Assembly: GCA_009760855.2 (NCBI GenBank)
Contig: WPIO01000101.1
Location: 470,001 to 534,000, forward strand
Source of the DNA: Cristatella mucedo
Taxonomy: Eukaryota > Bryozoa > Phylactolaemata > Cristatellidae
Length of the DNA: 64,000 bases
Direction of reading: 5' to 3'
Shown piece after piece: positions 18,171-60,131 of this stretch; positions within the stretch are counted from its first letter, which is position 1; every line of letters begins with the position of its first letter. Under the pieces are notes generated by a model. The model did no database searches. It saw only the letters and a program-made list of their open reading frames with translations, and had not been told where the DNA came from. The position numbers and the translations under genes were made by a program.

Positions 18171-18172
<2 letters not shown>

Positions 18173-19812: not shown

Positions 19813-20060
19813 GACTCCCCCTTTCTCACCCCCTCTCTCACACCCCCTTTCTCACTCCCTCTTCTCTCACTCCCCTCTCTCACTCCCCCTTCCTCACTCC
19901 TCCTCCCTCACTCCCCTCTCTCTCACTCCCCCTTTCTCACTCCCTCTTCTCTCACTCCCCTCTCTCACTCCTCCTTCCTCACTACTCCCTCACTCCCCTC
20001 TCTCGCTCTCCCTCTTTTACTCCCCCTCTCTCACTCCCCCTCACGCCGTCTCATTCACGC
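19813..20060. repeat. TCACTCCCC-type pyrimidine minisatellite
   Basis: Irregular repeats of CTCTCACTCCCC and CCTTTCTCACTCCCTCTTCT. One block of about 70 bp is nearly duplicated (about 19847-19905 and 19921-19985). Pro/Leu/Ser frames across it are artefacts. Confidence 0.85.
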
Positions 20061-21672: not shown

Positions 21673-21720
21673 CTACACACTCACACACGCACACACGCAC
21701 ACACGCACACACGCACACGA
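21673..21720. repeat. (CA)n-type ACACGC repeat
   Basis: About 48 bp of ACACACGC units inside the CpG island. Confidence 0.9.
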
Positions 21721-23069
21721 TGCGGCCTCTTTGATGGGAGCGGCAGCCGCTGTCGGGCCGCGCCGCAGTCCGTACACTGTGCGGCTCCTTCGCCCGGTCT
21801 CTCTCCGGCCTCCGCTAAGCGTGGCGCAGTCGCCGAAGCCCGCGAACCGAGGAGCGTCGCGAACTTTCGGGCAGCGTCTCTGCGCCCGATTGGCTCGCAG
21901 CCATCCGCCGCTCGCCCGCCGCGGTGCACGCGCCAACGCTGCAGCCGCTACTTGGCCTTCGCGGGCTCTCCTCGCGGCGGCGGCGGCAGCCTCCTACTCC
22001 TGCCGCGGTGGTCCTGTTGCGCCCTACCGCCGCACCACCGCGGACGGGCACGCCCACCGCCGCTTCGGCAGCAAAGAATCGTCCCGCCAGCGCTGGGCCG
22101 AAGGAGGCGGCGGCGGCGGCGGCGGGCACCGCGTCGCAGCTTGCGGGGGCCGCGGCCGGTAGGCGAGGCGGCAGCGCTGCGGCCAGCTTGGGCGGTGGCA
22201 GAGGCTCGAGCGAATATTTGCGTCGCAGCCCGGGAGCTCGCACTCCGTCTCCGGAGGCGGTTGGCGGACTGCTCTGCACCCACTTCCAGAGCGGACTCCA
22301 CACCGCCGCGCCCGCCGGTCGCACGCCCAGGCGGCGGTGGCGGCGGCGGCGGTCCGAGGAGGACGTCGCGGAGGTTGTTTTTTGGTAATCTCGCTTGGGC
22401 TCCAATCGGCTGATCGTCGCTCTGAGCTCGGAGCGGCGATCCGCCGATTAGAGCCCGAGCGCGGTTACCGAAAAGGAAGAGCTCGCGCCGTGAGTTTTGC
22501 TCGCTCGCGGCGGACGCGATAGCGCCGGCGCTGCTCCCGGCTTCGCCATCATCTCCTGCTTCGCCGCTGCCTCCACTGCCTCTGCCGCTCTGGATCAGCC
22601 GCCGCAGGGCCTGCGGCGCTAAAACGCCGACCGGCGATTGGCGGCGGCGGCGCGACCGCGGCGCGTTCACCCGTCGTTCTCCGCTCGTTCGCCGCTAGCG
22701 CTTCGCCAGCGAGCGGTCGCGCGCGAGCGTTCGCCTTTCACTCGACGGCTGACTGCGAGCAGCGAGGCGGCCGGCTGCGACGCCGCGGCGGCGGCGGCGG
22801 CGCGAGTGTTCGCACGAAAGCCGACGCTCGCGAACGAGAGCGCCGGTCCTCATGGACCGAGTAGGGTGCCGAGCGGGTAAACTCGATTCGCCGGTTTTTC
22901 GTAAGGTTTGGGCGCGCTTTTTCCTACGTCGGCCGGCCGACCGACCGCGAAGCGGTGGCCCCGAGCGGTGGCGGCAAGCGGAGGAGGCTGCTTCCGCTGT
23001 TGCCACTGCCGCGTTCAGAGAGGCTGGCGGAGGACAGAAGAGGAGGAAAGCTCGCCGCTCAGCCGGCCG

Positions 23070-23140
23070 CCGCTGCCGCCGCTGCCGCCGCTGCCGCCGC
23101 TGCCGCCGCTGCCACCGCTGCCACCGCTGCCGCTGCTGGC
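23070..23140. repeat. CCGCTG minisatellite
   Basis: CCGCCGCTG and CCACCGCTG units, about 70 bp, in the CpG island. Confidence 0.85.
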
Positions 23141-24748
23141 TTTCCCTCGCGTAAGCCCGAGCGCGTAAGCCGCAGCTAAGCAGCTTTAGCGCGCGCGATT
23201 TCCGGCGTTTCAACTGCTGAGCGATGAACCCGGCGATAATTGCCCGCGTCAAATCATCAATTACACCGAAGGGGTGGACTTCCGCGGTGCCGGCGGCAGC
23301 CGAAGCGGAAGCCTATCATAATAGGTCAAGGCGCGTCGGGGGCGCGCGCTCGCGAGAGGCCGCAGCAGCAGCAGCCGCCGCCGCCGCCGCCACTGGGCCA
23401 CCGGCTCTCTCTCTCTCTCTCGCCTGTGCGTCGCCTGCACGCGCGCCTGACAGGCCGTGGCCGCAGCAACCGTCCGCCGTCGCCTGCTCTACTCGGCTGC
23501 GGTCGTCGCAGCCACTTCTGCTGCTCGCTCCGCGCGCTCGCTCGTGCGTCCTCCGGGCACCTTCCGGCAGACGACGTCACGCGCGCGCGCGCGCGAGAGC
23601 GCGACAGCTCCGACTTACGAGACAGCCGGTAAGCTGCGGTCGCGGCTCGTGCGGCAGCCGCGAGCGATGCCGCCGCCGGCCGCATTCGCGGCGGCGAGGT
23701 TGGTCGGCGCGGCGGCGGCAGCAGCTGCGACGGGGTTGCGGGACGGGGTGACGGAGCGGCGGCGTCTGCGGCGGCCACTCGGGAGGGGGGCGGCGGCGGT
23801 TTCGACGACCTCTTCACGAAGGATTGACGGCCTCTTCGGCGGCGATGGGTCGCGATGAAATGGCGTCGAAGCGACGATTCTTCCGAGTTTCGATGCAGAG
23901 GCGAGTCGAGTAGTGCGTGAGTCGAGCGATCCCTGAGCCACCGCGGCCGCCGCGGCGGCGGGTGGCAGCCGAGCAGGCTTCTCCCTACGCCGCCTCTCTC
24001 GCCTCGACTACTCGCCGAGTAGTCGAGGCGACGTCTGCTGCGGCTAGCGTCTGTCCGACGCTAACCGCGCCGAGCAGCAGTGGGAGCGCTGGCGGGCGGG
24101 CGGGGGGGGCGGGCGGCAGCGGCAGAGGTAGTCGACGACGCTGGTGGCCTTTCGTAGCGGTGGTGGCGGCGGCGGCGCGAGCGCTTCTCCGGGTGACTCT
24201 CATTTGCCCGCACGAAGCGGTCCGCGTGCCGGCAGCGGCCGCGGAATTAGAGCCAAGATAGTTCGACGCCTTTTTCTAGCTCCTGAGAATTTGGCTAGGT
24301 CGCCCAATTGGAAATGCGGTTTAAAGGAGACGCCGCCGCTGACACAGCCGCCGCCGCGCTGATGCACTACCACCGCGGCCGCCGCACTGATGCACTACCA
24401 CCTACTACCGAGGCTCGTCGCTTAGCGTCGCTTAGTCGTCCGGCTTAACGCGGCGCTCGGCTTGGCCGCTGCCGTCTGCTGAGCGCCTAAACGGCTGGCT
24501 GCGGTCGCGGCTGCGTCCTTCGGACGGCGCCCTGCAGTCGTGCAGGCACTTGTCAATTCGTCGGGAAGGCTGTCCATATACTTGTTTTTTTAATTTTTTT
24601 TTATTGGCCCAGCCGGTCCGTAACGCATCGGGCGATTGTAGTAGCCAGCAGCTGAGGAAGAGATAAAACGAATGTGTGTGCCTTACTCTCAGTACTGCAT
24701 TCTCCCCTTTCTACCTGGAGAAAGGGCGGTGGAGGCCTTCTCCGAATT

Positions 24749-31599: not shown

Positions 31600-31667
31600 A
31601 AGAGATGAACGCTCAGCCGCAGGACCGAGACTTGCACGAGCTTAACGACCTGCTGGACTTGTCAGCT
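31600..31667 (+). CDS. TCF3/TCF4/TCF12-like: E-protein (class I bHLH factor), first coding exon
   Basis: E-proteins are nuclear class I bHLH activators that dimerise with tissue-specific bHLH factors at E-boxes. Their N-terminus carries activation domain AD1, an LxxLL helix that binds CBP/p300 KIX and ETO-family proteins. This exon follows an acceptor (atcgcacag|AAGAG), starts at ATG 31605 and encodes 21 residues, MNAQPQDRDLHELNDLLDLSA, before a consensus donor gtaagt at 31668. LNDLLDLSA corresponds to the conserved LSDLLDFSA of vertebrate TCF3/4/12, and the intron falls at the same place and phase (phase 0). The next exon is at 43025. The paralogue or orthologue class cannot be decided from AD1. 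The residues before AD1 differ from vertebrates, and Phe is replaced by Leu in the LDFS motif. A noncoding first exon further upstream is inferred from the acceptor; alternatively transcription could start just upstream. Confidence 0.78.
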
Positions 31668-31819
31668 GTAAGTCGCTTCTGCTGACGCTGTGCCGTTGTG
31701 CCACGATTAGATTTTGTGCTGCAAAGTAGCTGCAGTATTACGGAGGCACACGATAAGCCATCGGTTTCCTTTTCCGCCTGGTGTGGCTGAAGCTCATCTA
31801 CAATAAAGCGGGCCAGCCA

Positions 31820-31905
31820 GCTACTGTGCTCTACGGATTACAGCGGCATTTGAACCCCTCAACCTGTCAGTCGAAGCCAGCTGTTCTTTTCTAGCTGTGA
31901 GCCGA
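31820..31905 (-). mobile_element. possible tRNA-like SINE head
   Basis: On the minus strand GGGGTTCAAATGCC resembles a Pol III B box and TCACAGCTAG...CAGCTGG could be a decayed A-box region about 40 bp upstream. No tail is recognised; weak. Confidence 0.3.
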
Positions 31906-32385
31906 CACTAATGCACCACGGTGTTCCTAAGGGGGGCAACTGTCCCTGGCCCTTTGGACCTGACTCCAAGGTGTCTGCCAAGCAGCTTGCTGATAGAAAT
32001 AAGACCTTTTCAGCTACTCCCCCATGATTGGCCACCCCTTCAAGGTCAGGGCTTGATCAATTCCTGTATGTAGTCCTGGCTAGATTATTGGGAGCTAGGG
32101 ATCCTGTTTGGCATAAATGGCTGATATGCAGAGCTATTTTTCACTTCGAGAAGCAGTTCTAAAATGTCTGTGCTTTGTGTGATGACTGCAGGCATAAATC
32201 GAGATGCAACATTTCTAAGGCGGTTTTTCGATATTGAGGATGTTACGAGCTCGGTCGTCGGCTTCTTCAGCGCTTCGAAAATGGTTCGGTGTTGTGTGAG
32301 TGGTTCTGTGTAAAGCATGACAGCTTTTCCATCATGCTGTTCCAGCAGACTAGAGCGTTCGACGGCCTGCATAGTCCCCGCTAAG

Positions 32386-32456
32386 TAATAATAATAATAA
32401 TAATGCACTTGTCAAAGCGCAAACAGTGAAATCAATCTCTTTTTAGGCACTTTACA
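32386..32456 (-). mobile_element. L2-type LINE 3' tail
   Basis: On the + strand (AAT)n is followed by GCACTTGTCAAAGCGC, ATCAATCTCTTTTTAGGCAC and TTTACA, the reverse complement of the tail plan TAAAGTGCC...AGAGATT...GCGCT...(ATT)n seen at 15.6 and 17.6 kb. Confidence 0.6.
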
Positions 32457-32846
32457 TTTTTATAATGCATGGACTGGCTGTACCAGTCACAGAATATTAT
32501 AGCTTTGTTAGAAGGCAAACAGATAGCAGGGAACGAGTGGTAATAACGAGGAAGGAGAAAATAACACAGAGCAACAAGCAATAAAGTCAAGATCTCAGAT
32601 TTGGACGTGGTACCCTGAGCAATTAGCAGGTGGATGGGGAACTTTTACTGACTCGTTAGCAAACCAGTGCGAGTTACAGAGCCGTCCGAAAGCTAGATGA
32701 GCCAAATTGGCCTCGTAAATGCTTGACGCGGACAGAGGGAGAGCCTATATTTGCGTTTCAATAAGCACGAAAGACATATGGCATGAGTGAGGCCATAACC
32801 AAGCACCCAGGGAAGGGGTCGGTATGGGTCGAAATCGTTCGGTACC

Positions 32847-32848
<2 letters not shown>

Positions 32849-32886
<38 letters not shown>
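32849..32886. repeat. (GA)n microsatellite
   Basis: About 38 bp of GA. Confidence 0.95.
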
Positions 32887-32889
<3 letters not shown>

Positions 32890-33799
32890 AGGACGGCAGT
32901 CCTGGCGGGAGAGCTTGTGTGGAGACTTGTGAGGAGCAGGGTTCCAGTTGGCAACGAAAATGACTTTTTTGGAGGGGTTTCCGTAGGACTCGACCAATTG
33001 TCTGAGCCATTCAGAAGGACTGGTACATTATTGGTCAAGCTAGAGTGGCGATGCTGTGCATCTGCCAAGGATATGTGCAGAGTAATGTGCTATCTCACCT
33101 AGCTGGCTGCTACCATAGCTGTACTTCGAAGACTTCTAAGGATGCTGAACCCGCATCTGGTCAGATTCTTTAATGGCCGAGCGGTAATATCCGTCTGCAG
33201 GCCTACTCACCCCGGAGTGACTGCCGGCACCCCAACACCCGTCAGTGGGCATGCAGTCACATCTACATGGCAAATTGTAACATGTGTACGGCGTTTTCCC
33301 GAGTTCCTGCTTCATTCTCCCCTCATACTGCACCGGTTAAAGGTCAAGTTCAGGTCAGGCAAGGTTATACTGGTTCAAGGTCATGCAGGTTCTCAGTGGA
33401 AGTTACTTGCAGACCCTGCGGTGCATCTTCCGGTCCTGCCAACTCGAAGTACGAGATGCAGGCAAACGAAATTCTGCGACACTCCTTTTACCGGTGCGAA
33501 CCACCCACAGCGTGAAGGGCACGGTGAGTCGGTGGGGCGACCTTTTGTCTGAAGCTGGAGTGCACGACACGCCACTTGGTTAAGCAAGCCAAACAGCTCG
33601 TGGCTTGAAGATTCTATTCTGTCACGGTCGCCGGTTCAGAGGCCACTGGGTGCAAGCATAAAGGACCGCCAGTTTCTGATCAATGGACTGTATGGGGTCA
33701 GAGGGGCTTTCTGCCGCAGGCGGGTGGGAGGGGGGCTCCCACCGGTATATGCCGAGCCGACCAGAGCACCCCCAACTGATGAAGCACCGACCTGCCGAG

Positions 33800-33865
33800 C
33801 GAGCACCGGCCTGTGGGGGGCTGGTCGGTGAGCGGCCTGTGGGGGGCTGGTCGGTGAGCGGCCTG
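33800..33865. repeat. 27-bp tandem repeat
   Basis: About 2.5 copies of a unit containing GGCCTGTGGGGGGCTGGTCG, followed at 33880-33898 by a poly-C run. Confidence 0.85.
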
Positions 33866-36253
33866 CTGTCTACCCTGCACCCCCCCCCCCCCCCCCCGCC
33901 CGAAGGTGCTCCCAAGGCTGCAGTGTGTGCTAGTACGCGGAATGCCGGACACCTGTAGCTGCTGCGGTAACCGAGTGGCACAATCGAGATCGCTGTAAGG
34001 CATGCTAGATCTCGGCGGGTCTACCTCCTGCTGCACTGCCTTAAAGATATCTGGCGCTTCGTAGCTGCCCCCTCTCGACCGTGACAATTTCCATTTGCTG
34101 AGGTAGAAACTCGATTTTGTCATTAGCGAGCAAAATGTTAGGAATTTGAGCGGTGCACTCTACGGTGTACGATAATCATAAATCTGTAATACGTAATCGC
34201 TGTTCGCTCTTCGCACGACCACTGATTTTTAGTGGCTCTTGGTAGATTGATAGTGGTGCCGTGTGCCTAACGATCTAGACAGCATCGTGTCATCGGTCCC
34301 ACGTGCATGGATTTCTTTTTGAGCTACGGTGTTTTTCGGGCCAGACAAACTTGGATCATTGCTGTAGATGTCTCTTCGGTCTTGACTTCGTCATTCTATG
34401 ACACTTGATTAATGTTATCGTCATGCGGAACAGCCATTAGCGACTTGAGTGGTCAGATACTGACTGGCTGAATTAGGCGAAACAGCTACATTGATTCCTT
34501 TACTCAACGAGTTGATCAGAGGTTTCGCAGCGGCCAGGACGGGTTACCTGCTTGGCCAAGGTTAACGGGCACTTGTTCATTCACAGTACTCTGTGATGCC
34601 CAGTTTCAGCACAGACCTGTCGCAGCTATGACAGCTATAGAACTGTCACAGCTGTCATCTGCTTTCGCTAGGCTTCCGTGGTGCAAAATCAGAAGGTGTC
34701 ATTTAGCTCGACACTTTTAGTTGACTCACGAGGAGTCACGCCTTTGAATTTCACTAAACCTTGGATGGTGTGATGAGCACATAACAAAAATAGGCTCGCG
34801 AGGGCAAGGCGATGAAGAGCGCATGATAATGCATGGTGGGTAACGATTAAAGTAACCATTGGCTAATATCGTTGGCCGCAGGTCCCGATTGCACATGCAT
34901 GGATGACACCGAAGTCGCTCCATCGCTTGAGATCTAGGGTCAATGCATCCGGCAATGGAAAACCAGCGATTCTTGGGCAATGACAGATTAGAAAAAACAT
35001 TGTGAACATTACGAAAAAAAAATGAGGCTTAATTAAACCTGTTCCTGACAGCTGTTAGCACTTCAAAAAAAATGTCGGCCATCGAAGAAGTGCTAAAGAC
35101 TGTCTACTCCAGGTTCGAAGCTGAAAGCACACCCTCGTCCCGGGAATTCCTAGAGTGAAGTCGAGCTTATGTCGAGGGAGCCGATCACGAGCCCTGCTCG
35201 ATCACTCTGCTCGACGCACGGACGTGGGGGATGCAAAGACTCTGGACGATTGGAGACCGTAAATGTAGTGCAATACGATCCTGCGTTTGCAGATAACTCA
35301 CGGCATCAGCAATTCCCACCATGTCCCCAGCTATCCCCCACCCATGTCCCCCTGCAGTCACCTCACCGGCATCACTCCCAGCAGTCCCCTATCATAGCGT
35401 AACATTTTCTTTGCGCCCTCCATAGCCGGTCAGACCTGCATACGAAACAAGCTTTGGGCATGAGCATGGTCTGCAAAACAGGCTCAGGAATCTGCTGACA
35501 GGAATCTAAACAGCGTTGGCTTTAGTGCTCTGGCAAGTTATAAATATAAAATAACACAACCTGCTTCCCACTGCCTTGCGGGCAGCCGGCCAGTGGTATG
35601 TCGTGTTATCTGAGACTCTGGGGAAGCTGCTAACAGCAACATGTCAGCTTGATGTTTGTTCCTCTGTGTGTCAGGCACCTTGCTCTACAGCTGCCTGGTC
35701 GGTTTCAAAAGCAGCCTTGAGTCATTGAAGCTGCTGCATGTAGGTATCGCTAGCGTGCCTGCTGCTGAGATGAGTTGCCGTGCTGTTGACTTACTGTTGA
35801 CTCACTATGGCTGCTGCTGCCCGGGCAAATGTAGTCTGATGCCCTTCCGGGTACTGTGAAACCATTTGGCCATCTGCAGCAATTCGGCCATGTTCTCAAT
35901 CCCTAAAAGTAAATTCGGGATTAATAATTCAAATTGCTCACAGCATCCTTTTAAGTTAACCTTGACTGGCTGGTCGATAAAGAAGATGCCAGATATGAGT
36001 CCGACCACTGCTTTACTTGCAACCACCTCTATAGGCCACACGTGCATTCAGCCAAGAGTGTATTGCTAAGCGTGTGGCAGCAGCAGCAGACGGCTCGTGG
36101 GAGTAATCCCTACGTGCCTAGACCATCTCCTCCATCCGGGCGGTACACCTCAGGCGTAATGGTTGCAGCTTGGCCTGGCCTTATGTTACATTTAGAAACA
36201 TTTAAACTAATCAGGCAGTATGCAGGAATCCCGCTCGGGAAAGAAGTCCGGGT

Positions 36254-36350
36254 TAATATAATATTAATTATAATAATAATAAATTTGTATAGCACTCTCA
36301 GAAAACCGAATCGCTCTCTAAGCACTTTACAATTGCTGCATATACAGCAT
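36254..36350 (-). mobile_element. L2-type LINE 3' tail
   Basis: (AAT)n then TTTGTATAGCACTCTCAGAA, CGAATCGCTCTCTAAGCACT, TTACAATTGCTG on +; a minus-strand 3' end of the same plan as 39.2, 50.2 and 61.4 kb. Confidence 0.7.
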
Positions 36351-36517
36351 TACCAAATGATAGGTGATAACAGCCGCAAGCAGCAGGCGTAGTGCAAGCT
36401 TACTAGTTACACGCACGCACAAAAAGGACGAATCACGAAGACTCACCAAATGCTGTAAACAGGTGCATTTTAGAGAAGCAGTGCTGGGGCTCGGGTAAGA
36501 ATTCCATCGCGGGTGGT

Positions 36518-36518
<1 letters not shown>

Positions 36519-36566
<48 letters not shown>
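36519..36566. repeat. (GA)n microsatellite
   Basis: About 48 bp of GA. Confidence 0.95.
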
Positions 36567-36567
<1 letters not shown>

Positions 36568-36811
36568 AATCCATCGCTGGGGAGGGGGGAAGCAGTCCAT
36601 CGTGGATGGAAAGCAGTCCATTAGGCGACCGGTCCCCCTTGGACAGGCCCAAAGGGGGTGGCACACCGAGCGTCCTTAAGCCTTCTTGATTGGCTGCCTG
36701 TGGTCTAGACTGCTAGTTCTAGCCTCCCCTCCCACCGTATCTCAACTCAGGCTGCCGGGATGGTGCTGCTGCTGCTGCTGTTTCGCCCAGCTGCCGATCC
36801 GAACGAACTGA

Positions 36812-36945
36812 GGGGGGCTTGCAACTTGCGATCAGCTCATGCTCAGGCCTCAGTGCACAGGTGCCAGGACTGCTGACGGGGGGGGGGGGTTGCAGCTTGC
36901 GATTAGCTCATGCTCAGGCCTCAGTGCACAGGTGCCAGGACTGCC
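36812..36945. repeat. 65-bp direct duplication with poly-G junction
   Basis: A block containing TCATGCTCAGGCCTCAGTGC and ACAGGTGCCAGGACTG occurs at 36812-36876 and again at 36881-36945 with very few differences. Each copy is preceded by a G run. Confidence 0.93.
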
Positions 36946-39175
36946 GCTTCGCAGCCTCCGAACGTCACCCAGTGTCACGCAGTGGGAATTGTTAGGCTCG
37001 CAGGCGCTCGACTCTGAGGGCAGCATTTTTGAAAAGGTGGGCTGAAGGCCGCCCGGCTATTTTGCTGGGTACCACGAGGCAAACTTGAGCTATTCTCAGG
37101 CGAAAATTCGGGTCGGGTAGCAGGCCAGGCCAGCAGCAAAGGCCGCCCAGCAAGAGCAGCCAATGCGATGATGCCGATGTCTCTGTGCGGTACTAGCTGC
37201 TTCCTGCAATACGGAAGAACATGTGACAGACTCGAGTCGAGTTTGTCTAGCTCTGAGCAATTCGGAAATTTCCGGGAAAATTCGTAAATTAGATTCTTGA
37301 GGGGAAGTGCCAACGGATAGGCAAGGTGAGATTTAAAACAGTAGACATCCTCTTTCACTTCTCTAACACTCGCTGAAGTGCAGCTTGTCTCTTTAATTCG
37401 ACCTCGTTATCGTATATGGGCTGCTTGCAACGCAGTTAAAACTACTTGGCCATGTATATTGACGGATAGCAGTTCGGTCTATGCACGACCAGCTCAATGA
37501 TGTGTGATGAGGCAAGTTAGTCCGACCCTGTATAATAACCAGTGCTAACCCACTAGCAGTGTGACATTGCAAAGCACCAAGGAGAAAGTGATGACAACTG
37601 GCCACCCGTATCGTCTTCAGCCACCGAAGTAATACGATCGACGTACCGCTGAAATAATGGCAATAAATCGCCAAATGCTTCTGTGATGAACCTTTCGGCA
37701 AAGAGGTTATCCGGTTCCCGGTTCCTGGTTCCAGCGCCAGACAGCCGGTGCCTGGTTGTTCCTGGCCGTCCCAAAAGACTAATCATTATCTCCCAAAACC
37801 TCATGTGTGAGTTAGTTACCTTAATGGCTACTCCAGCAACTACACTTTCTAAAACATGAACAAAGCTGCCCTGCCTGAATGTTGCCTTTCATTGAACAAT
37901 TCAGCGACTGCTCTTAAGATGTGAGGTCAAGCTGACCACAAAGCTGCCATAAGTTCAGGGGTCTCCGACCCGAATCTCGAAGACCGCCAGACAGATAGAA
38001 TCTTCAGAGATCTGTTTCTCTTTTCTTGCATGTGGCTCACCAGCCTTTCTGAGAGGCAAGCCACCAAGCCAACATTAGTCACAACGGAAGGCCCGGATCC
38101 TTGAATTTTTTCAGTAGGGCATAATCGCAATTGGCAAGATTCTGCAGCTTTGAACTGAAAGGACTTTTGCTCAGGTTCCGCCGCGATGCCGCGCTATATA
38201 GAGCTCGCTGGCAGGAACAGTTTCAAATTGGGTTCTTCAGGTTGCAAGCTACAGGTTTAGGTCACAGAGCTGCTGTCAAGCAGTTATCCTGCAGGGCTAA
38301 GTTTTTGGAAGGTACATGTTCAAGGAATTCCGCAGGTGGTGAATATTAGAAAGATTGCAGCCCCAAACCAAAGAGACCTGACGCAGAATTGAAGGGTGCC
38401 GAAGGGTCAAGGTCACGTTGACGACCCAGCGAAACCATTGGCTCGGTTTGACATCCGACCTGTACAGACGGTCTGCCACCGAAACCATGGCAGTAGCCTC
38501 CAGAAAAGTGACTCCGGATGTGCGCATCGAAGGCGCCGCTACGCCCGTAAGGCCATTTAGCTTCTCTAAGAGGTGCTGCTATCTACTTATCCGAAAGCCT
38601 GAAGCTTGACCTCGAAGGCAAGCCATCCGGAAGAGCCGGTACGTTCATCCGGAGGGCTCGACTAAGGCTGCACTGCCCTCCGGGCGGCGTACTTGGCCAG
38701 ATGCAAAACAAGTTGACTTCGAGGTCTCCCTTCGGATGAGCAACTTACGGCTGAAAATTGCAGCCACGGAGGGCTCCTTAGTTAGCCTGCCCTCTCTGCC
38801 CCTGCCATACCCATCCCATTTTGGAGCGCGCTGGGAGCTCAGCCTCATTCCGGGCAGCCGCCCGGAAGTGAGGCTGAGCTAGGCAGTACAGAGCAATCGA
38901 TTGCCTCGATTTCGTGAGTCCGAAATCACGGGCTGCTCTTGAGATGATAAACTCTTGGGCACCACTAAGAAAAAAATCGGTAGCCTCCCTGCAAACAGGA
39001 CGACGGCCGCCTTCTGGAAATCGACCCGTCAGCATGCTTGCTAGCTGAAGGTGGCTGTCTGCTCCAGCAAGGCCTTGCATGTGGGAGCACCTACAGGCTT
39101 TGGGTGCTGCACTTTCAGGCTGCCATCCGAAGGGCTCGGAGGCTATGGGAAGGGCTGGGAGGGGGCTTAAGCCAT

Positions 39176-39262
39176 CAAATAATAACAAATCATTTGTATA
39201 GCACCATAAGAGAACCAAGGCTCGTTCTGGGCACTTAACAAATGCTGGAAAGGAAGCATGTC
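39176..39262 (-). mobile_element. L2-type LINE 3' tail
   Basis: CATTTGTATAGCACCATAAG, AGAACCAAGGCTC, GGGCACTTAACAAATGCTGG, AAAGGAAGCATG. It shares the AATGCTGgAAAGGAAG extension with 61.4 kb, so these two belong to one subfamily. Confidence 0.7.
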
Positions 39263-42200
39263 AAAACGAGCACATTAATTACAACGTTCGCTTTGCGATG
39301 TAACTGCAAGCCCTGGCCTCGTGCCTAGGGGTATGACTCCCACTCAACATTTCTTTTAAACCGTCTAGGTCATCGACTCACGGTTCGCCTGGACTGCCAA
39401 GTTCAGCGACTCCTGCCGGGGAAAGGGATATCGGCGGTATTGCTTGTTGTATGCACTGGTCAGTTATACTACAGTGGCCGTTGGCCGTCTGCTAAAAAGA
39501 CGTTTCTCAGCTTCTTCCGAAATAGCCTTGGAATCACAGCTCCAGCTCAATGTCGGGCACCGCCCTCCCCAACCCAACTCACCCGTAGTCCACGGATCCT
39601 TTCTAACTGGTCATGCAACGCATGCATCAGTGTAATGAGGACTTTGCCACCGAGATGCTCTATTACCTATGCCACAGTAGCCAAACGTAGAAAGGACGAG
39701 CGGGCGTGTCGAGGGCCAGGCTTCCCGACACTCCTCTCTGGGTCTTAGCAGAGCCGTCACGTGGCCGTCAGATCCTTTTAAGGGTCAGGAGGTCAGGATG
39801 AGGTGCCTCCTTTCCATACTCCAGTGATGTAGTGCACGACCACTGCCTAGTTGGTCTTAGCTGCTTGCACTCCTTTCATTGCCGCATCGGGTCTTCAGCC
39901 TGCAGCGCCTGCGGATACTTGCACTCCTCGGCGGGAGCCGAGTCGTCGGCTCGAGTCCTGCGAGCCGCTCAGGCTTGCTAGTCTGCTTGCTATCGAAAAG
40001 AGAGGGTGGCGCATCTATTTTTTACTTGCCCTTTTTTACATTTTACTTTTGAAATGGATTATAAATCCAGCCGGCCTGCCCAACGGGCATTCAGCCAACT
40101 GAATGCTCTGGTCTTCCCCCTCCCCGGCGAGATCGTCACAAAGCCACCGGTTTCTCTCAGCCACGCCACGCCATGCGGCTTGTGCTGGGACTGTTCGCAC
40201 CCATGGCAGGCAATCACTTTGCGGCTGCTTTTACGGCAGCTCAACGTAGCTCTCTCTCTCTCTCTCCTCTCTCTGTCTCTCTCTCTTTCTCTCTCTTCCC
40301 CTCTCTCTCTCCATCTCTTTCCGGGAAGAATGCTTCGACGAACAGAGCAGATACGTGAGATACAGACACGATTCTAGGTTGAATACCTCCTTCCCTGCCT
40401 CCTGATGTATGGACGCAGATGCTACGCAGGACATCCGACTGCATCCCAGAATACTTCTCTTCCCGTATCAGCCCTATGCGGCAGGGACCAGCAGCAGCAG
40501 CTCTGGCACAGCTAGCCGCTGCCTAGCCGAGCAAGAGCTGCCGACGGCTGCACCTGGCTTATTCCGGATGATTTCTCTCACGGTCGGTCAGTCAGTCACC
40601 GGTAGCTGGCTAGTCAAATGTCACTGCCATTCATTACCGGGGGGGGGGAAGGGGGCAGTCAGTCTTCTCGTGAACCCAGCTGCTCTTGACCGATTGCCCC
40701 TCTGCTCTTTTCGCTTACTATAGATCTGCCTGCCGCCTGACTTCCGCTTCTGTCGCCGTGTTTCATGCCTGTCGGAAGGAGCAGACGCAGTTGTGCCATG
40801 CACCGGCTCGTCTGTCACGACCAGTGCCTTGCGAGTTCGAGAAGCTTTAGGGATGGAGAGAGGGTGACAGAGTGGGAGGGGAGGGAAAGGGAGAGGGAGC
40901 AAGAAAGGAGGATGCTTAGCTTTACACAGACGAGTTCCGACTCTTTCCCTGCGCCAGGCTAGCAGCCACTCTGTCGCTGGCAGGCAAGCCATGTGAGCTA
41001 CAGAGCAGAACGAATCACCGATTACTATTTTAGAAACGCAAATTCCCCAAATACTTGCATGCTTGGACCTTGCCCGATCATAGAGTTTCTTATTTCTATG
41101 TACACTGCTGTAGGTAGAGCAAACTTTTTGATATGGATTCTCCGTGTTAGTTTTTTATGTATTTTTATTGTTTTTTTCTATCAGTTACACACATCTGTGC
41201 GGCCACGAGCATACATTGTAAGCCTATGAGCACATGCAAAGCTTGCACAATATATAATGTGCTCAGAGAGTGCAAATTTTTAAGAACGACTGAATTGGTT
41301 AAGGTGTGCACCATGCTGAGCCAACTGCCAGACTTATGTAGTACTAACTAACACAACAAACATGGCATTATCTTGACATGGGAAGAGTAAGTCTAGCTGG
41401 CCAAATGAGTTTTCTCCCTCCTTCCGGTGCTGAAGGCAAAGGGTCGCAGCAACGTCCCAATTGTAGCCACGAGTGTCCTCCTTACGACTTATGCTCTCGG
41501 GGGTACGCCAGGCTGAGGTTCAACTACGAAATCGATTGGACACGTGGCAATTAATTAAAAAAATGCCACGAGCCACGCCGAGGCTGGATCGCTGAGCAAT
41601 CGAGCTATCGATCGATTCAGTCGTATTCGATAGTCATGTGCTTTCTCCGAACATTTCAGTCAGGCTTGCATATAGCGTAAATCTATTTTTACATAGAGAC
41701 TAGTTTCAATGGCGTGTCTACTGCTGGATCGTACCGTGTTTCAAAAGCCAGTACGAAAGCACGAATGCCTGTAATCAGCCCTGGAAACTGGAGCAGGGGA
41801 TGCATGTTGTGTTGCTTGTATTCTATTGGTCTACTACATCTTGCGTTGTTTTTATTCTCTTTGCCTCTGATATCTTGAATGGAGCGGTTCTTACATCCAA
41901 CCTGAGGTAGCTAGGCACTACTGCAGTCGACACCTGCAGGCTCTGGCAAATCGATTGGCGAATTCGCATTCGAGCCGTGTCTTCGAATGGATTTGTAAGG
42001 GAATCTCGAGAAAAGTTAAAAGTTACTCCGGACTCGACGCACACACTTTTCCCTGACGGCTGCGGGAGAAAGTGCTGGCAGGCTCCTCGCTAGATCGCTC
42101 TTGCCAGTACGGCTGCTGCAGGCAGGCGGCACGCTTCCGACTCACCGATTTGGTCTACTCTACTCAGAGACCGGAAGGCGGCTCAGCCTCGGGCCGACCT

Positions 42201-42726
42201 GCCGGCCTTTAGAGGGAGGACGAGAGGAGAGTCCACTGGAGCTCCGATGATTAATGGCCGACAGTTTTGCTGCCGTCGCTGGCAGCTGCTTAAATAGTTT
42301 AATTCATCGCAGGCAGCTTGCGGCTGTGGCAATAGCCCATTCCGCCTATACATCACCGGTCGAAGCTGCTAAACCACTCAGGCAGATGACTTGAGCAGGC
42401 ACAGTCGTCGTCGGCTGCCTGGGCTTCTGCCCGGGCAGCTGCCCCAGGCAGCGAGACTGCAGTTAGCCTGCAGTGCTACCGCATGCCGCCCACCCTCTCC
42501 CTGCCACCGCCAGACCACCACCGGCCAAACTCAGGGGGGGCGTGGGAGACGTTAAGAGGCTAGAGGTTCAGCATTGCCTGCCTCTGGCTGCTTCTTAACC
42601 CCTCCACCCTAGCGGGTGCTCAACCCCCTTGCCATACAACCTAGGCGTGTAAAGGCCAGGCCCCAGCACTCCTGAGAGAGAAGCCCTTACTCAGATGCCT
42701 GCTTTTGAGGCACCTGGCAGGTGACA

Positions 42727-42822
42727 GGGTGGAGGCAGGGAAAGGAGGCAGGGAAAGGAGGCAGGGAAAGGAGGCAGGGAAAGGAGGCAGGGGAAGGAGG
42801 CAGGGGAAGGAGGCAGGGTGCG
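42727..42822. repeat. 13-bp minisatellite GGAGGCAGGGAAA
   Basis: About seven units; the last three carry GGGGAA in place of GGGAAA. It lies about 200 bp before the second E-protein exon. Confidence 0.96.
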
Positions 42823-43024
42823 AGCCTCTAACCTGGGCGGCACCCTGCCGATGCAAGAGCTTCAAAAGTATCAGCCGTCAGGCCCGGCCCCCCTTGTGCT
42901 TTCTGCCATCGGCTGCCTGTCACTCTTTCACACACGCCATCGTCTGCTACCGCTGCCTCGAGATCATTCGCACGGCTTGACCCGCACGATCGCTCAACCT
43001 AGCCATGTCTCTTGTTCCTTGCAG

Positions 43025-43094
43025 ATATTCACCCTGCCAATAGGAGGCAGCAGTGGCAAAGCCGGTGCCGCGGACGCTCAGTACAACTACAGAG
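43025..43094 (+). CDS. TCF3/TCF4/TCF12-like: E-protein, second coding exon
   Basis: A 70-nt exon between a strong acceptor (cttgttccttgcag) and a donor (AGAG|gtacgc). Read in phase 0 from the previous exon it encodes IFTLPIGGSSGKAGAADAQY followed by NYR and one base, so it ends in phase 1. In vertebrate E-proteins the exon after AD1 begins MFSPPV.SGK (TCF4/TCF12) or MFPLPV.NGK (TCF3), starts in phase 0, ends in phase 1 and is about 73 nt, so position, length, phases and the F-x-x-P-[VI]-x(2-4)-[SN]GK pattern agree. The first residue is Ile (ATA) where vertebrates have Met. The next exon (vertebrate SGSWG-type region) was not found in the remaining 20.9 kb. Confidence 0.75.
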
Positions 43095-43197
43095 GTACGC
43101 TGCTGCTGGACAGTACGCTAGCTCGTTCTCTCTGTCACTCTTCCGGAAAGCAATCTTCACAGCAGCACACCCCTATCCCTCTCCAAAGTCCTGTCAG

Positions 43198-43551
<354 letters not shown>

Positions 43552-45954
43552 GCCACACTGGACTAATGGAGCTCTCGCCTACGTTCCACACTCGGAATGA
43601 CGGATCTGGAAGACATCTTGACCGGCTTAGCAGTGGCTATGGTCGGAGGGCAGTCCGGCTCAATGCAGCTGGCGGTACGGCCTCAGGTGGTGCTGCTGAG
43701 CCGGTTCGGTCGGCCGAAAGCTCGGTTAGCCATTGCGGCTAACGGGAAGCTGGAGATTCACGATCGAGAGGTTCTGCTTTGACTGAGCTGCACCGTGCTG
43801 CTGCTGGGTGGTAGCAGCAGCTGTGGCTCCGGTTCGAATGCTAAGCCGTTCGCAGCGACCGTGGCCTTTGTGGTAAAACCGTCTCGGAGCCACCGTGGGC
43901 GTGGCAGCGAGCTTGGTTGGTCGATTCTAGCTCTCTCGTACGTCCAGCGAGGCTGAGAGCGATCGAATTTGCAGCGTTTTTTGTGATTCTTTTTCGTATG
44001 CAGCTGGCTAAGCGTTGGGGCTCCTTGGGACTGCAGGCGACCTGTAGAAGCTATCCTACCATCGCGAGACTCGTGACCCGAGCCGGCGATCTCTTTAAAT
44101 CCTTTTTGTTGTCTGTCTTTCTTCTTATTTATCATTTTCTTTTTATTATTTACTATTTGTCGCACTTTTAGCTCGGATTCCCGTGGAGCGAGTGGTTTCA
44201 TTTCTCTATCTTCTTCATGCTCAAGCTTGCTTTGAACACACTGTAAAGACAATGGTGTTCTACATCAGCCATACCATGACTCTTGAGATATTATTCGCAG
44301 TTCATGAATTGAATGACTAGGAGCTCCACGCGTCATAATCTATAGTTACGAGGCGAAAGTCTAAGTCGCGGAGCAGTGATTCGATTTGGCTCTAGACCTC
44401 GAATTAAGCAGCTGAGTGTCGCCCGAGGCGTCGTACAAAGAGCTGTGAGACTCTAGGAGAATTGCTATGTGCCATGGCCCGTGCTGCAAACCCTTCATCC
44501 TTCAAGGCTATCGAATAGAGCACTCTACGCTAAGAATATGAACTTTATTATCTCAAGTAATGGGTGATCTTTATTGGTGCCGTGTTTCCCTGCCACCGGG
44601 ATACCTACGTATTTGTGCTGCATCTAAAAGTGCATTCGCTGGTAAGTTGATTCTTGTACGAGCTCTCACCGCCGCGTGCACGCTCAAGGTCAGGTCAATG
44701 AAGAGAGCACAGTCCACTATCACGATAAATTAGATTGGGTGAGGTTACGGTCGAGGTTAGGTCGAGGGCTAAACTGCTGACATGGAAGGCTCCCCAGTCT
44801 TTGGAGTAATTAGTTCATCCCTTATCGCTGCATCTGTGCACTGCCCAGAGATGTGCGTTATTTTCACTCGCGGTTTGCATGAGGAAGAAGAAATTTGCCC
44901 AAACGTCTGCGAAAATGTATAGCGATTAACTGCAGAGGCACCTATCGAACAATTAGAAGGAAGGAATGGAGGAAGTACTTGTCGGCGCTTGACCGCGGTT
45001 TGCTGTAACTGTACGACCTCCAAAGCTAGAAGCAGCTTCGGTCCTGGCAGCTCGCTCATTCAGCGATTATGCTGGGTCTCTGAGTGCTTCGACAGATTGC
45101 ATTACTTAACCTAGCCACTGCCATTTTTGAAAGCAGGGGGCCATATTAGCTTTTTGTGCGGCATCTCGGATCAGTCCGAGAGCGGATTCCTCTTCTTACC
45201 CTGGGTCATTCATTCCAGCTTCTGTATATCTGATTGTTTAATATTGAGCAGGCGCTTACCGATTATCGTGTGCAGACTTTCTTGGGCTATATCGGCCTAA
45301 CACCCGAATATTATGTACAGATAGGTAGCGTGTGCAAAGAATGGTTTCTCATAAATGGGAAATAGCATCCTTGGTACAGAGGTTAGTATGGATTGCTCTG
45401 ATTTTATTTCCATATTATCAGCTGTTTAAAGGTGGAATCTGCTCCTTGCTATTTATAGGGTCTCTGCCTACTCGGCACTTTGTATTCCCACATCCGTCTC
45501 ATCCCATCGGAGATCTTTGTTTTTATAGTGGGCTATTTTTTGGGAATAGGGAGCATACATAGAACTATAGGCGGCATAATTAATAAATAGTCATGCCCCC
45601 ATCATCTTTGCAAGTATGACACTGTATATACCTTTGCACGAACACCACACACACTCACAGCAGCTCACCGACCCCTCCCTCCTGCCACAAGTAAGGAGCT
45701 AATACTGGCCGTCCAGTCATAAGCTGCAGGAAGCCAAAGCCATGAAGCGACGTTTTTCTGTTCGATTACCTGCAGTACTTCTCAACTCAGAACTCAGCCA
45801 CTCCAGCAACTGAATCGAATCAGTTTCCTGAGCCGACCACTATCTGTCCAACATGCAGAGGCTCTACAGAAACAGGGAAAAACCAAGCAGCAGCCAACGG
45901 CAAAGGCACGGATAGGAGACTAATAGTTACACCGATGGGCTCACCTATTCTGGC

Positions 45955-46080
<126 letters not shown>

Positions 46081-46399
46081 CATAGAGAGGCTCATGCTTT
46101 GTCATCAGTAATATTGTTATGCTGGTGAATGCCAGTAAGTGACCCTAGGTGGGTCCCGATACTGCCAGAGTGTAGATCCATTGACGCATCATCCACCGGC
46201 TGGAGTATCAAACCGACATGTGGGTGTCCACATATCTCAATTATTTGCTGACTACTTGGAGCCTCCTCCCACTACCACGCAATAATCCCGATTATTGGTT
46301 ACCATATTTTAGCACTGCCTGCTTCAGATGCTCTGACTTTTACCGTGAAAAACAATAGGACAAAGGAAAGAGGTAGTCAGTCAATCTACCATCATGACC

Positions 46400-48680
46400 T
46401 CGAGCATCCACTTCCTATGCAAAAATACCTCACATCTTCAACCCTTATTCCTGCATTGGCCAGCTAAGTCCTCATATCGGCTAACCTTTCTTTCATGTGC
46501 CACCTCCGTGTTTCCTTCCCACGGCACCAGCAGGTCAAGAAATATTGAATCGCGGTTTATGACTGGAGCTATGACCACCGCACAGCATCCGGATCGAGAT
46601 TCGTCAGCAGTCCGTGTGGGGGAGGGAACGCCACACAGTATGGTAAGGTAAGGTCTGCCACCACGTGCAACTCTCCCTCAGCATTGAGCAGCAGTTTCAA
46701 AAGACCGCACTTCTCAAATCCCACTTCCTTATCCTGGATGACACTTGTGTGAAGTCATCACATTCCTCTTTGTCCCTCCGGCGGAACCATTCGGACTATC
46801 TCGCTCCATTCATATTCCATTTCGCATACTTCCACCGTCAGTTTCTTCAGGACCGCCAGCAACTGGTCAACTACTCTAAGACTGCTCGCAGCCTCACAGA
46901 ATAATGCGCTCCAACGATCCGACTGCGTAGCCTCTCACATGCCTGTTGTATTTGCGAAGTAACCGCCTGACCAGATTGCAGTGTGTGCGAACAGCTAGTC
47001 GCACGTAGCCCGAAGCACGAAGGCCAGCCGGGCATGCTCTTAGTTCGGTCCAAGTAACCTTGATAAGTAGATCCGATTTCTAGGTGCTCCGATGGCCGAC
47101 GTTGCGGCGGCTGCTCTCTACTGTCTTTGCAAGCTTCGCCGCCTTTCTTCTTCTTCTTCTTCTTCAGCTTCAGCTTCAGCTTCCCTCGTCTGCTCGATCG
47201 ACACAGGCTCTCCAGGCTCTCCAGAATCGACGTCAGCGCGGCTTTTCTACGGCGGCGCAAGCCCGTGCCCAGTCCCGCCAGTCGAGGTTGCCGCGATTGA
47301 GTCTTTCGTTGCCAGACTAGATAGATCCAGTCTCCTCTGCACTGGCGCGCTTTGTCGCTTCTTTTCTTCCGGCGCAGAGGTCCGGGCAAGAGCTGCTTAC
47401 GGCACTTCGTGGCCAGAGAATTGCGAAGCATCGCTGCATCTCTTACCTGTTTGACTTTTTACTTCTCAGCCGGGTACTTAATTGCAAGCAAGACATAACT
47501 CGAAAGTTGATGGATACGACGCATTCGCTTACAACTTCTCAGTGTGACCACGTGATGCCACCGCCAGACACTCGATAGCTCACTTTTTACCCTTATCGCT
47601 CCACAGGGCTCTTCGGGATGGAATAAATCAAGAGACGCCATAATTGTCGAGGTATTAGTCTGGCAGTACCAAATTTTAAGATTGCCCTGGTGGACGACAT
47701 TTGTCGATGGCTGGCAGTCCTATTCTACAGCTTGCCTACTAATCTTATTCCTACGAAACCTGTCAGCTTGGGGATCGAAGTACCATCACCCTAGGTGTTC
47801 AATTAAAAGTGGCATGTGGCTTCTTCAGCTACAAAGCATTGTTTCACCACTCTGCCCCTTTGAAAGTCAACGAGTGGCTCTTGCTCAGCTTGAAGACCAT
47901 CTGGCACCAAGCGAATAACTCATCCAAACTCTTTGTTACACCACTTACCTGGTCGCTAGGCAGGAATCAATGGTAACGTTGTCAATGAATGCCTGCATTG
48001 ATGGTAGACTTAGCATGTCAGCTAGGTTTATCCCCGAGACTACAGATGCTACATTAAGGAGGACCATTTCCATAACTAGCACAAGTCGAGACATAAGATA
48101 CTCAGCCGACTGGGACGCCAAACTGAAGGGCTACCACGAAGTAGTGAAAAGTCGCTTCGTGAACCTTACTTGGAACTTCCTGTCGTATTCAGATTTGGTT
48201 TAAGCTTTCTTGGTAAAAAAGTGAAACAAAACCAAAAAGTGAGCCAGGGTAGCCTTGATTACCTTGTGGTACATGGAACCGTAAGTATCTGACAGATCAA
48301 GCCGCACCAAGCTAATATCAGTCGTTGGGTTTTAAAAGCGGTTCAATTACATTCCAAAGAAGGCTACCCTGTTCCGAGCATCGGATAATGCCTGCTATAC
48401 CAGCTTTCTGAACCACTGGATCTATGCCCTCTTTTCATTAATGAAACTAGCTAAACTCCTTAAAGTACCGCTGAAAAAATTTCCTTGCCTTCTACGAGTG
48501 CAATAGGCCTGGACTGACCAACTTTTGCAGACTTTGTTATGTATAGCCGTTTGCATGGCACCGCTACACTCGTACAAGTTCCATGGACCTCCGGTGGTCT
48601 AGCAACTAGGCACGGCAATCCCAAACTGGTAGAGGGCATTGCGTGCACGTCCTATCACACCGATGGCCTCCGGCCCAGGC
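46400..48680 (-). mobile_element. element D: degenerate RT with C-terminal endonuclease-like domain
   Basis: On the minus strand, in several frames, this reads as an old retroelement of a family widespread in marine animals. Order: SRPIALVEGKEIFSAVL (about 48460-48520, canonical QFRxISLLNVEGKIFFS); DISLVRLDLSDTYGSMYHKV (about 48250-48320, palm Asp in LDLxxAxGSVxHK); VLVMEMVLLNVASVVSG near 48030-48080; FIDNVTID near 47970-47995 at the catalytic FxDD position (second Asp changed to Asn); FKLSKSHSLTF near 47860; the RRKKRQSA...GTGHGLAPP segment near 47260-47370; and LDLLVPWEGNTEVAHERKVS at about 46480-46545. The last block fits a restriction-like endonuclease fold (E-x-T/x-VPWE then ERK) as in REL-endonuclease non-LTR clades. 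Many stops; non-functional. Clade assignment is inference. Confidence 0.7.
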
Positions 48681-50167
48681 TCGCTGCCGGCCCTTGACTC
48701 CCGATAGTGACCTTACTCTAGAAAGCACTCGTTCGGCCTCCCGGCTCTTGCGATCGTCCCGGGCTCAGTTAGCGTTCGCCACCGAGGAAAGTCGCCAGAC
48801 ATCTCAGTAACGGCATGAGCCCCGAATAAGTTGTCCTGAGATTTTCTCAACTTTCTCTTCCTTACTTTTTTTTACGAACCACTTGTACTTACCTCGAACA
48901 GCCGTTTTGAGGAAGCACGTGTGTCTTTAGCTGAGCTGAGCTAGATTCCTGCTTTTTTGTTTCCTAATCTTACGATAAGCCTCAGGTCTCTAACTAACTG
49001 CCTTCCTAATCTGAGCGATGATATAATTAATGTTGCTTGTTGAGTCGACTTTCTGACAAAGATTGCACGCCCTCACAGCAGCAGCGACTTGAGTCGAGCT
49101 CGACCACGTGACACGTCTCTCCCGCTGCCTCCATGAGAGGCCTGGAGCACAGACTTCGATCCCAAAGGTGGCAGGGCACGCCCGAGACAACTCCTGATGA
49201 CTAGAATAACTGTAAGATTCACTTTTATAGCTCCTCAAGAGAACTGTATCTCCACCCTGACGCTTTACATATGCCGGAGGGCTCGACGTTAGTCATTTCA
49301 GGGGAGCACCCCTTGGCCAAACCAGATTGGCGATACACAACGTACATAGTACTATATCCCTTGTTTGGTGTATATCTATAGTATTTAGGACATGCTTGCT
49401 TGTACCTAGCTTGATAGGCGACCAGCAGCAGCAGGTTAAGGAATGCAACGTGCATTGATAACGACTAAGGCTTTTCCTGACCACAGTAACCAGCGGTGAA
49501 TCCCTGACGTGTTCCTTATATTGCCAGACTGTGGCACTTTCTCTGATACTCATGCTCGAGCACATCGCAGAGTGAGTGAGGATTTCTACAGTTGTGTTCC
49601 CACCGAAGCATTTTCGCCCACAGCTTCCGGGAAACCGGTATAGAGCCGTTGCTGCCCCTGCTGTCCATGAACAGTCCGAATAGTATGCAGCCCTGAAGTC
49701 TTCTAGCACGACTTGCATAGCCAGAGCACCTCCCCATCTGTTGGGTCCTCGAAGGCGAGAGCGATGCAGCGTTCGGAAGATTTGCGTAAATGTTGGCCTT
49801 TTTGAGATGATCACCATACATCTAACAAGCGTTTGCTTTCAGATATGGTGGCAGAACTTTTTAAAATGAGATAAATCGTAAATAATCGTAAGTAAATCGC
49901 TCGATGGTGGTGCAGTTAGATCATAGATATATTGATTATTGATTAGCATAGAGGATCTCCATATTAACCACTTCGTGATGGGTCAAACGTGTTCTCCACA
50001 AGTTCAGTCGTGGTGCACTCTAGGCTGTGGGCCTGATCGCCTGATCGAGTTAAATTAGTAAAAGATCGTCATGCTATAGAATTCAACGGTGAACAGTAGC
50101 AAGCCCCCCTTTGTACTCGCGACTTTCTTTGAGAAGTTGCAACGGGTTATGCTAAGACAGCCTAATG

Positions 50168-50235
50168 AGAATACAAGTTGGCTCTTTATATAGCACCCTA
50201 AGAGAACTTAATCTCTATCTAGGCACTTTGGAACT
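50168..50235 (-). mobile_element. L2-type LINE 3' tail
   Basis: CTTTATATAGCACCCTAAGA, GAACTTAATCTCTATCTAGG, CACTTTGGAA on +: the reverse of the LINE tail plan, without an (ATT)n end. Confidence 0.65.
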
Positions 50236-50830
50236 CGAAGCAAGAGTATCAATAACCAAGGATTAGTGATATTCATGGTACCAATCTCGCAGAAGCAAGC
50301 AATTATCATGCTTCGGCCTGCTTGCTAAAGCAGACGTGGAGACATTCATGGCCACCTCTGGCAAGTAACGAATGTGCACTGGTACCGAATCATGCACGGT
50401 ACCCAGACCAAATACAGCGGAAGAGCAGACAAGTTCACTGGGGCGAAGGTAATGCTGACCGGAGCAGGTGCGCCTTCGGCTGTGACGAAAAGAATGCATG
50501 GCCATCGCATTGACAGCAGCCGAAAGCGAGTTCCAGACTTTTGGTGCATACAAACTGAAGGCTCGATCACCAAAGATTTATTTTAATGCATAGGGACAAA
50601 TCCTGAAGATTCTGCGATGACTAGAAGCTGAGTTGCAGGTGGTTGGTGAGCACACAGGAAGAGCAAGGAGGTCGAATAGGTAGGCTGCAGGTGCTAGCGA
50701 GCCAACTTACCTGTTCTCCAGACTGGTGATCTTGAAATCGGTTCAATTGGACTGGTCCATTACATGTTAGAAGTCCTTTCGTCACTGCAAAAGTCCTGGT
50801 ATAGTTTCTGAAGTAGGTCAATCTTCCAGA
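50236..50830 (-). mobile_element. dispersed repeat body attached to L2-type tail
   Basis: Contains GCGAGTTCCAGACTTTTGG, CTGAAGGCTCGATCACC, GGAGGTCGAATAGGTAGGC and GTGATCTTGAAATCGG in that order. This is the order seen in a common repeat of fish and marine invertebrates that carries the GCGCT-type tail. Recognition is from memory of that pattern; boundaries are approximate. Confidence 0.4.
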
Positions 50831-51075
50831 TCAAGGTGGCAGTGTGAGAACCTATATTCCCAAGGAGCGCGACTCCATTGATGCAGCATTGGGTCTGACA
50901 CCTACTGGTATGCAACGATGCCTTCTGAAATCATCGGTTCATTAACATAATCTTCATTGATTAGGTACCAAAAATTCGCATATAGCCAGCTGCATCGGAC
51001 CAGAATCTCATACAAAAGAAATCCATTAGAGGAATGCCAGCACGTGCTGCCTCCAGCTGTGTCACTGTCACTTCC

Positions 51076-51222
51076 TTCAGTGCCTGTTCCTCCAGCGTCT
51101 GTTCCTCCAGCGTCTGTTCCACCAGCGTCTGTTCCACCAGCGTCTGTTTCACCAGCGTCTGTTTCTCCGGTGTCTGTTCCTCTAGTGTATGTTCCTTCAA
51201 AGTCTGTTCCTCCGGCGTATGT
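51076..51222. repeat. 15-bp minisatellite GCGTCTGTTCCTCCA
   Basis: About ten units with GTTCCACCA, GTTTCACCA and more diverged 3' units. The Val/Pro/Ser-rich + frame and the Glu/Thr/Gly-rich minus frame across it are repeat artefacts. Confidence 0.93.
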
Positions 51223-51555
51223 CTCAGTTCTCCTTTTCTGTATATTTGGAAAGTACCTTTTCCTCCCAATCGCATTTAGCACTCAATATTGAAGCAGCTG
51301 GTCACCGCTGATCACTCTTGCCTACCTAGTCTGGTTTGAGCAGTGCGTGTAGTGCGTGAGCAGCGTGCTGTAGTGTGCACTAAGCTACTGGTCGGCGGCA
51401 GCTTTTCGGCCAACTTTCTAATGCTTGCTTGCAGTTTAGCAATGGGCCGGAAGGATCTGGCCGTTCGACGGAGGAGCTAGTCATCGGATGGTATCTCGAG
51501 ACACGGCGCCCTTCTACCTTTTGAGAAATATGTTGGTTCCTTTGTTGCCGCATTG

Positions 51556-51727
51556 TTAATATTAATATTATTATCTGATTTAGCAGCCTAGTTAGTATAG
51601 CGGCAGAAGAGCCTTGACCACCGCCATCACCCCCCCTGGCAGTTGGCAATAAGGGATCGCCCACTGCTGAATTCGAACCCACGACCTCTGTCGTTAAGAG
51701 CGATACCTCCTGGGCTATCAAGGCCCT
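51556..51727 (-). mobile_element. tRNA-derived SINE, copy 4
   Basis: On the minus strand: TAGCCCAGGAGGTATCGC (A-box region), GGGTTCGAATTC (B box), GTGGGCGATCCC, GCCAACTGCC, GGCTCTTCTGCCGCTATAC, GCTAAATCAGATAA and a TAATATTAA-type tail at 51556-51574. Second-best preserved copy of the family. Confidence 0.85.
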
Positions 51728-53315: not shown

Positions 53316-53342
53316 CGAGAGAGAGAGAGAGAGAGAGAGAGG

Positions 53343-53396
<54 letters not shown>

Positions 53397-53417
53397 AGAG
53401 AGAGAGAGAGAGAGAGC
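53316..53417. repeat. (GA)n microsatellite with G runs
   Basis: GA dinucleotides interrupted by GGGGG near 53341 and a run of about 10 G near 53388-53397. Confidence 0.95.
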
Positions 53418-55491: not shown

Positions 55492-55517
55492 CCCCCCCCC
55501 CCCCCCCCCCCCCCCCC
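55492..55517. repeat. poly-C run of about 26
   Basis: An unbroken C homopolymer after CCCAGCCCAGCC. Confidence 0.95.
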
Positions 55518-60130: not shown

Positions 60131-60131
60131 G

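Follow-up and report, generated by a model that had tools for sequence, protein, structure and literature searches.

Do two short open frames, separated by 11.4 kb of repeat-rich DNA, belong to one gene, and what kind of gene would this be? The question was raised by a window of 64,000 nt (contig C2, positions 470001-534000, of a 572-Mb assembly with 688 contigs), in which a preliminary description had recognised two coding exons of an E-protein gene, named exon A and exon B here. The window almost certainly contains the 5' part of an invertebrate E-protein gene of the Daughterless type (class I basic helix-loop-helix, bHLH), with exons A and B encoding the beginning of the protein and in it activation domain 1 (AD1), its main activating segment. 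E-proteins are gene switches in wide use among animals. It is a well-supported and ordinary gene from a family that is already known.

Two short exons for activation domain 1

Both exons were present where they had been described, and the coordinates, the splice signals, the open join and the phases (0, then 1) could all be read from the DNA. The coding part of exon A comprises 63 nt (21 codons) with the product MNAQPQDRDLHELNDLLDLSA, and it is followed by a GTAAGT donor in the sequence GTAAGTCG. Exon B has 70 nt and lies between the acceptor TTCCTTGCAG and GTACGCTG, with GTACGC as its donor. The joined frame is open and reads MNAQPQDRDLHELNDLLDLSA followed by IFTLPIGGSSGKAGAADAQYNYR. These are the two coding exons of the E-protein gene found inside the window, which is arranged as follows.

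31600..31604 (+): putative untranslated 5' end of exon A, preceded by a possible acceptor ...CGCACAG; alternatively, part of a longer first exon
31605..31667 (+): coding part of exon A, first half of AD1, phase 0 end; matched by E2A and by the paralogue
31668..43024 (+): intron 1, GTAAGT...TTCCTTGCAG, 11,357 nt by subtraction
43025..43094 (+): exon B, IFTLPIGGSSGKAGAADAQYNYR plus one base, continuing AD1, phase 1 end; matched by the paralogue
43095..64000 (+): beginning of intron 2 (20.9 kb of it), expected to continue to C2:540508, 6.5 kb beyond the window end

In vertebrate E-protein genes, the counterpart exons are some 25 codons and 73 nt long. The match to vertebrates claimed earlier held for motif, order and intron phase, while in length it is only approximate, given these exons and the differing second copy described below. 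No match was found for the joined A+B peptide in Pfam, and Rfam (at gathering cut-offs) and ARAGORN reported nothing in the window.

bHLH exons follow downstream on the same strand

An E-protein gene should continue with bHLH exons downstream on the plus strand, as the preliminary description had anticipated, and such exons are present on the same contig 28-30 kb past the window end. Of 76 candidates scored in a bHLH family scan of the assembly, 41 matched at E<=0.001; none of 14 control genomes gave a match. One of these matches is located at C2:562977-563111 on the plus strand. Three exons cover the bHLH region there (562325-562399, 562977-563123 and from ~563330, all plus), and the boundary of the first one falls inside an Arg codon. 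The joined peptide (C2:562325-563400) was compared with the Protein Data Bank (PDB) and matched E2A with an E-value of 1.6e-34 and TCF4 with 1.7e-24, followed by TAL1 (4.4e-4) and MITF (9.4e-4). Of eleven matches at E<=0.001, eight belong to E2A or TCF4, with a Max-E2A chimera counted among them; the remaining three are TAL1 and MITF at 4.4e-4 or weaker. The peptide is a class I bHLH and carries the E-protein tail (RERNLNPK). When human proteins were used in tblastn, the matches listed comprised the bHLH exons and otherwise mostly low-complexity stretches.

A second E-protein gene repeats the arrangement

Another of the 41 bHLH matches lies on the minus strand of contig C210 and is of the E-protein type as well, with 52 of 66 residues in the bHLH region identical to C2. 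Its exon A (60 nt) reads MNLQPDRDLNELNDLLDLSA and ends at a GTGAGT donor. In six-frame scans for [LIVM].[DE]LL[DE].[ST], exon A was the single match in 134 kb of C2 and MNLQPDRDLNELNDLLDLSA contained the single match in 150 kb of C210. Exon B of C210 (IFNPPLSSKGGMDSQYTYR plus one base, 58 nt) is located 5.1 kb downstream of its exon A with the same phases as in C2. AD1 is thus split alike in both genes, namely by a phase 0 intron after the equivalent of LDFS(A), and the next exon ends in phase 1. Both copies share ELNDLLDLS, an AD1 helix of the LxxLL (PCET) type in which LDFS has become LDLS, Leu replacing Phe.

Between exon B and the bHLH exons, a small exon with a Trp codon was found in each gene, in C2 at 540509-540549 (ADPPSAWNHAGDYR, 6.5 kb past the window end) and in C210 at 250014-249977 (ADNSSWNNNSDYR), with phase 1-to-0 in either case. 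Ranked against vertebrate pieces, it came first of 84 and first of 20 splice-compatible candidates. The likeness of the two Trp exons to each other was reached by none of 200 shuffles after low-complexity filtering; before it, one low-complexity pair had scored higher. Within the window, a motif scan for the Trp exon gave no supported exon, and the pattern matches at 47808 and 60810 were unsupported. A candidate for the following exon (exon D) starts at ~540698 in C2 and at 249792 in C210; it has phase 0 acceptors, and the alignment behind it is weak (score 37). Besides the bHLH exons and one Ala-rich stretch, tblastx between both loci, filtered by strand and bit score and in one run also by stops, mainly detected matches of long interspersed nuclear elements (LINEs) and other repeats. 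The layout common to C2 and C210 consists of a CpG-rich island, exon A, exon B, the Trp exon and the bHLH exons.

CpG profile and the proposed transcription unit

18001..24000 (+): GC-rich and CpG-rich island, presumed promoter region; C210 has one upstream of its exon A, too

In 2-kb bins, the island shows a GC content of 0.66-0.71 and a CpG observed/expected ratio of 1.16-1.32, which then declines (0.99 at 24001, 0.79 at 26001). Past ~24000-26000, the ratio drops sharply to 0.6-0.8 through the rest of the window, as gene-body methylation would give. The profile along C2 was calculated in 3-kb bins, leaving out bins with too few letters. It ranges from 0.87 to 1.18 before the island (0.73 in one bin), reaches 1.16 and 1.29 at 489001-495000, stays at 0.68-0.87 over 495001-567000 and returns to 0.83-1.17 in the next five bins. 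In C210, values of 1.20-1.30 over ~281-266 kb are followed by 0.49-0.83 beyond the bHLH exons to the end of the stretch, with no recovery. A putative transcription unit may begin at the island and end shortly after the bHLH exons. Transcription would start near the island at ~18-24 kb, splicing would join exon A to exon B across 11.4 kb, and further splicing would reach the bHLH exons another ~50 kb away.

Weighing the alternative explanations

Two short open frames near splice-like signals can occur by chance in a repeat-rich intergenic region, and several results weigh against the gene as proposed. The joined A+B peptide (44 residues) had three PDB matches at E<=10. The two at the top of the list align with the AD1 helix of E2A (HELNDLLDLSAIFTLPI vs KELSDLLDFSMMFPLPV, E 0.095 and 0.76), the third is an unrelated protein (E 1.3), and the E2A match (E=0.095) is weak on its own. 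In a six-frame comparison of the window, KELSDLLDFS of E2A matched best at exon A (score 33, next 25), a borderline result with 1 of 200 dinucleotide-shuffled windows reaching this score. Exon B was not above chance against E2A: with a score of 26, it ranked third after two unrelated matches of 30, and 30 was reached in 55 of 200 dinucleotide shuffles. A looser pattern for its start matched six places in 134 kb of C2 and five in 150 kb of C210, exon B included each time. The likeness of the Trp exon to the vertebrate SGSWG exon is not significant, since shuffles did as well in 184 of 200 cases for C2, in 14 of 200 for C210 and in 12 of 200 for both loci at once. A pattern scan for the AD2 motif found none in C2:513000-564000 and one match without sensible context in C210, and any exons between the Trp and D exons and the bHLH region are putative. 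Moreover, CpG is equally low in some individual bins beyond the C2 gene, and low CpG does not single out this gene because C210 has a second low block (0.52-0.84) upstream of its island. The case for exons A and B as more than chance is made by the genome, namely by the paralogue and the downstream bHLH exons on the same strand, and not by the E2A match alone. With the second copy as query, the exon A core scored 69 in the window, whereas the highest score in 200 shuffles was 37. The end of exon B scored 30, reached by 2 of 200 shuffles; its start gave no signal, as it was outside the best two matches of the window, whose best was reached by 156 of 200. Exon A together with the phase and ending of exon B is found again upstream of the bHLH exons of the genome's other E-protein gene. 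This paralogue argues against coincidence, which is already largely refuted and can be given hardly any probability.

The E-protein gene could also belong to a vertebrate such as a lamprey and be a homologue of TCF3, TCF4 or TCF12, the names used in the preliminary description. The high GC content, the many microsatellites and the long introns would fit, and three lamprey E-protein homologues are described that fall into none of the three clades of jawed vertebrates (PMC8199221). The mitochondrial code argues against this. On contig C688, the COX1 frame stays open for 517 residues when TGA is read as Trp, compared to a longest open stretch of 201 residues in the vertebrate code. AGA and AGG occur at positions expected to be Ser, ATA at expected Met and AAA at expected Lys positions. 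Codes 4, 5, 9 and 13 all leave the 517 residues open, and code 5 was picked by these presumably conserved residues. Four other contigs (C166, C83, C549 and C299) carry broken COX1-like copies, which look like nuclear insertions and suggest that C688 is the animal's own and no contaminant. C688 itself has duplicated open reading frames, and the long gene frames recognised on it are all on one strand. As COX1 is read by the invertebrate code, the gene is a Daughterless-type invertebrate E-protein gene and not a vertebrate TCF3/4/12, an origin with next to no likelihood; a lamprey source, considered for its GC content, microsatellites and diverged AD1, was rejected on the same grounds. The earlier assignment thus stands for the 5' part of an E-protein gene, supported by the downstream bHLH exons and the paralogue, and falls for the vertebrate names. 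Finally, the C2 copy might be decayed, with the C210 gene as the working one. Its tail is altered where C210 has ACLKRREEEK, and its frame ends soon after. On the other hand, in neither copy do the AD1, Trp and bHLH exons that were inspected show a broken frame or a damaged splice signal, and the bHLH residues of C2 strongly match E2A, so that a pseudogene is improbable.

AD1 residues and a possible KIX partner

If expressed as proposed, the protein would dimerise via its HLH region and bind E-boxes, and its N-terminal helix ELNDLLDLSAIF may dock on CBP/p300 (KIX) or on an ETO-type corepressor. E-protein AD1 is reported to bind KIX and TAZ2 of CBP/p300 as well as NHR1 of the corepressor ETO, with Leu20 given as essential for KIX and ETO, and Leu19 and Phe22 for TAZ2 (PMC8283981). 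TCF4 isoforms with the full AD1 are described as stronger activators in a reporter assay (PMC3137626). The AD1 encoded in the window keeps the equivalents of Glu15, Leu16, Asp18, Leu19, Leu20, Asp21, Ser23, Phe26 and Leu28 of E2A. At the Phe22 equivalent, both copies have Leu, and at Leu28 the C210 copy has Pro.

KIX was searched in the same genome and gave three matches at E<=0.001 (of six scored) in two places, on contigs C441 and C54. The C441 stretch includes EEYYHLLAEKIYKIQKELEEKR. Both stretches are CBP/p300-like with similar flanks, and C54 shows more changes. Among the contacts listed in PMC8283981, C441 retains the presumed equivalents of Ile611, Phe612, Arg624, Asn627, Leu628, Tyr631, Ile660, Leu664 and Lys667, while Thr614 is replaced by Ser and Ala619 by Val; C54 has further changes, among them Ile replacing Asn627. 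Together with the two E-protein genes, the two KIX stretches may hint at a wider duplication. The genome thus encodes a KIX partner and an AD1 ligand, which are predicted to bind each other. Because Leu takes the place of the Phe reported as essential for TAZ2 binding in either copy and KIX keeps most of the AD1-contact residues, AD1 might act via KIX (and ETO-type corepressors) instead of TAZ2; such a lineage-specific coactivator shift, kept in two paralogues, is a tentative and rather doubtful proposal.

Repeats in the window

Minisatellites and a perfect (GCT)55 run occupy 26894-27183, 28804-29281, 31135-31305, 42731-42818 and 8157-8322; the minisatellite units are an 18-mer (16 copies), a 14-mer (34), an 18-mer (10) and a 13-mer (7). 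CT/GA microsatellites are also numerous, and several of the tandem repeats lie less than 1 kb from exon A or exon B. LINE-type remnants are found at 16260-17336 (+; reverse transcriptase, Pfam RVT_1 7e-16), 1518-1985 (-; RVT_1 sub-threshold, 0.024) and 56926-57345 (+; 81% protein identity to a C210 stretch, no Pfam match).

Comparison with known E-proteins

An E-protein is expected in a bilaterian, and the two copies as well as LDLS are mild surprises. Two genes of a single invertebrate are seen here to carry an AD1 divided between two exons that lie a long way upstream from the bHLH exons, and the paralogue allowed such a short pair of exons to be confirmed from genome sequence. The AD1 isoforms of TCF3 (E2A), TCF4 and TCF12 (HEB) resemble the present gene in their LDFS-type N-terminal helix encoded upstream and in an AD1 distributed over several exons, which for TCF4 are given as exons 3-6 with LDFS in exon 3 (PMC3137626). 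The bHLH with its RERNLNPK tail is likewise shared with them. Unlike E2A, both copies have Leu for Phe22, and the gene differs further by His for Lys14, Thr for Pro27 and Ala for Met24, Ala being also present in HEB. Here the bHLH region contains an intron, placed within its basic part, whereas that of TCF4 is described as one exon (PMC3137626). TCF3, TCF4 and TCF12 are genes of vertebrate hosts, while the host here reads AGR as Ser. Daughterless of Drosophila, described as the fly's only E-protein (PMC4736037), is an invertebrate class I bHLH protein like the present one, a relatedness drawn via the E-protein family. Unlike the single Daughterless of the fly, the genome studied here has two copies with AD1 at the N-terminus.

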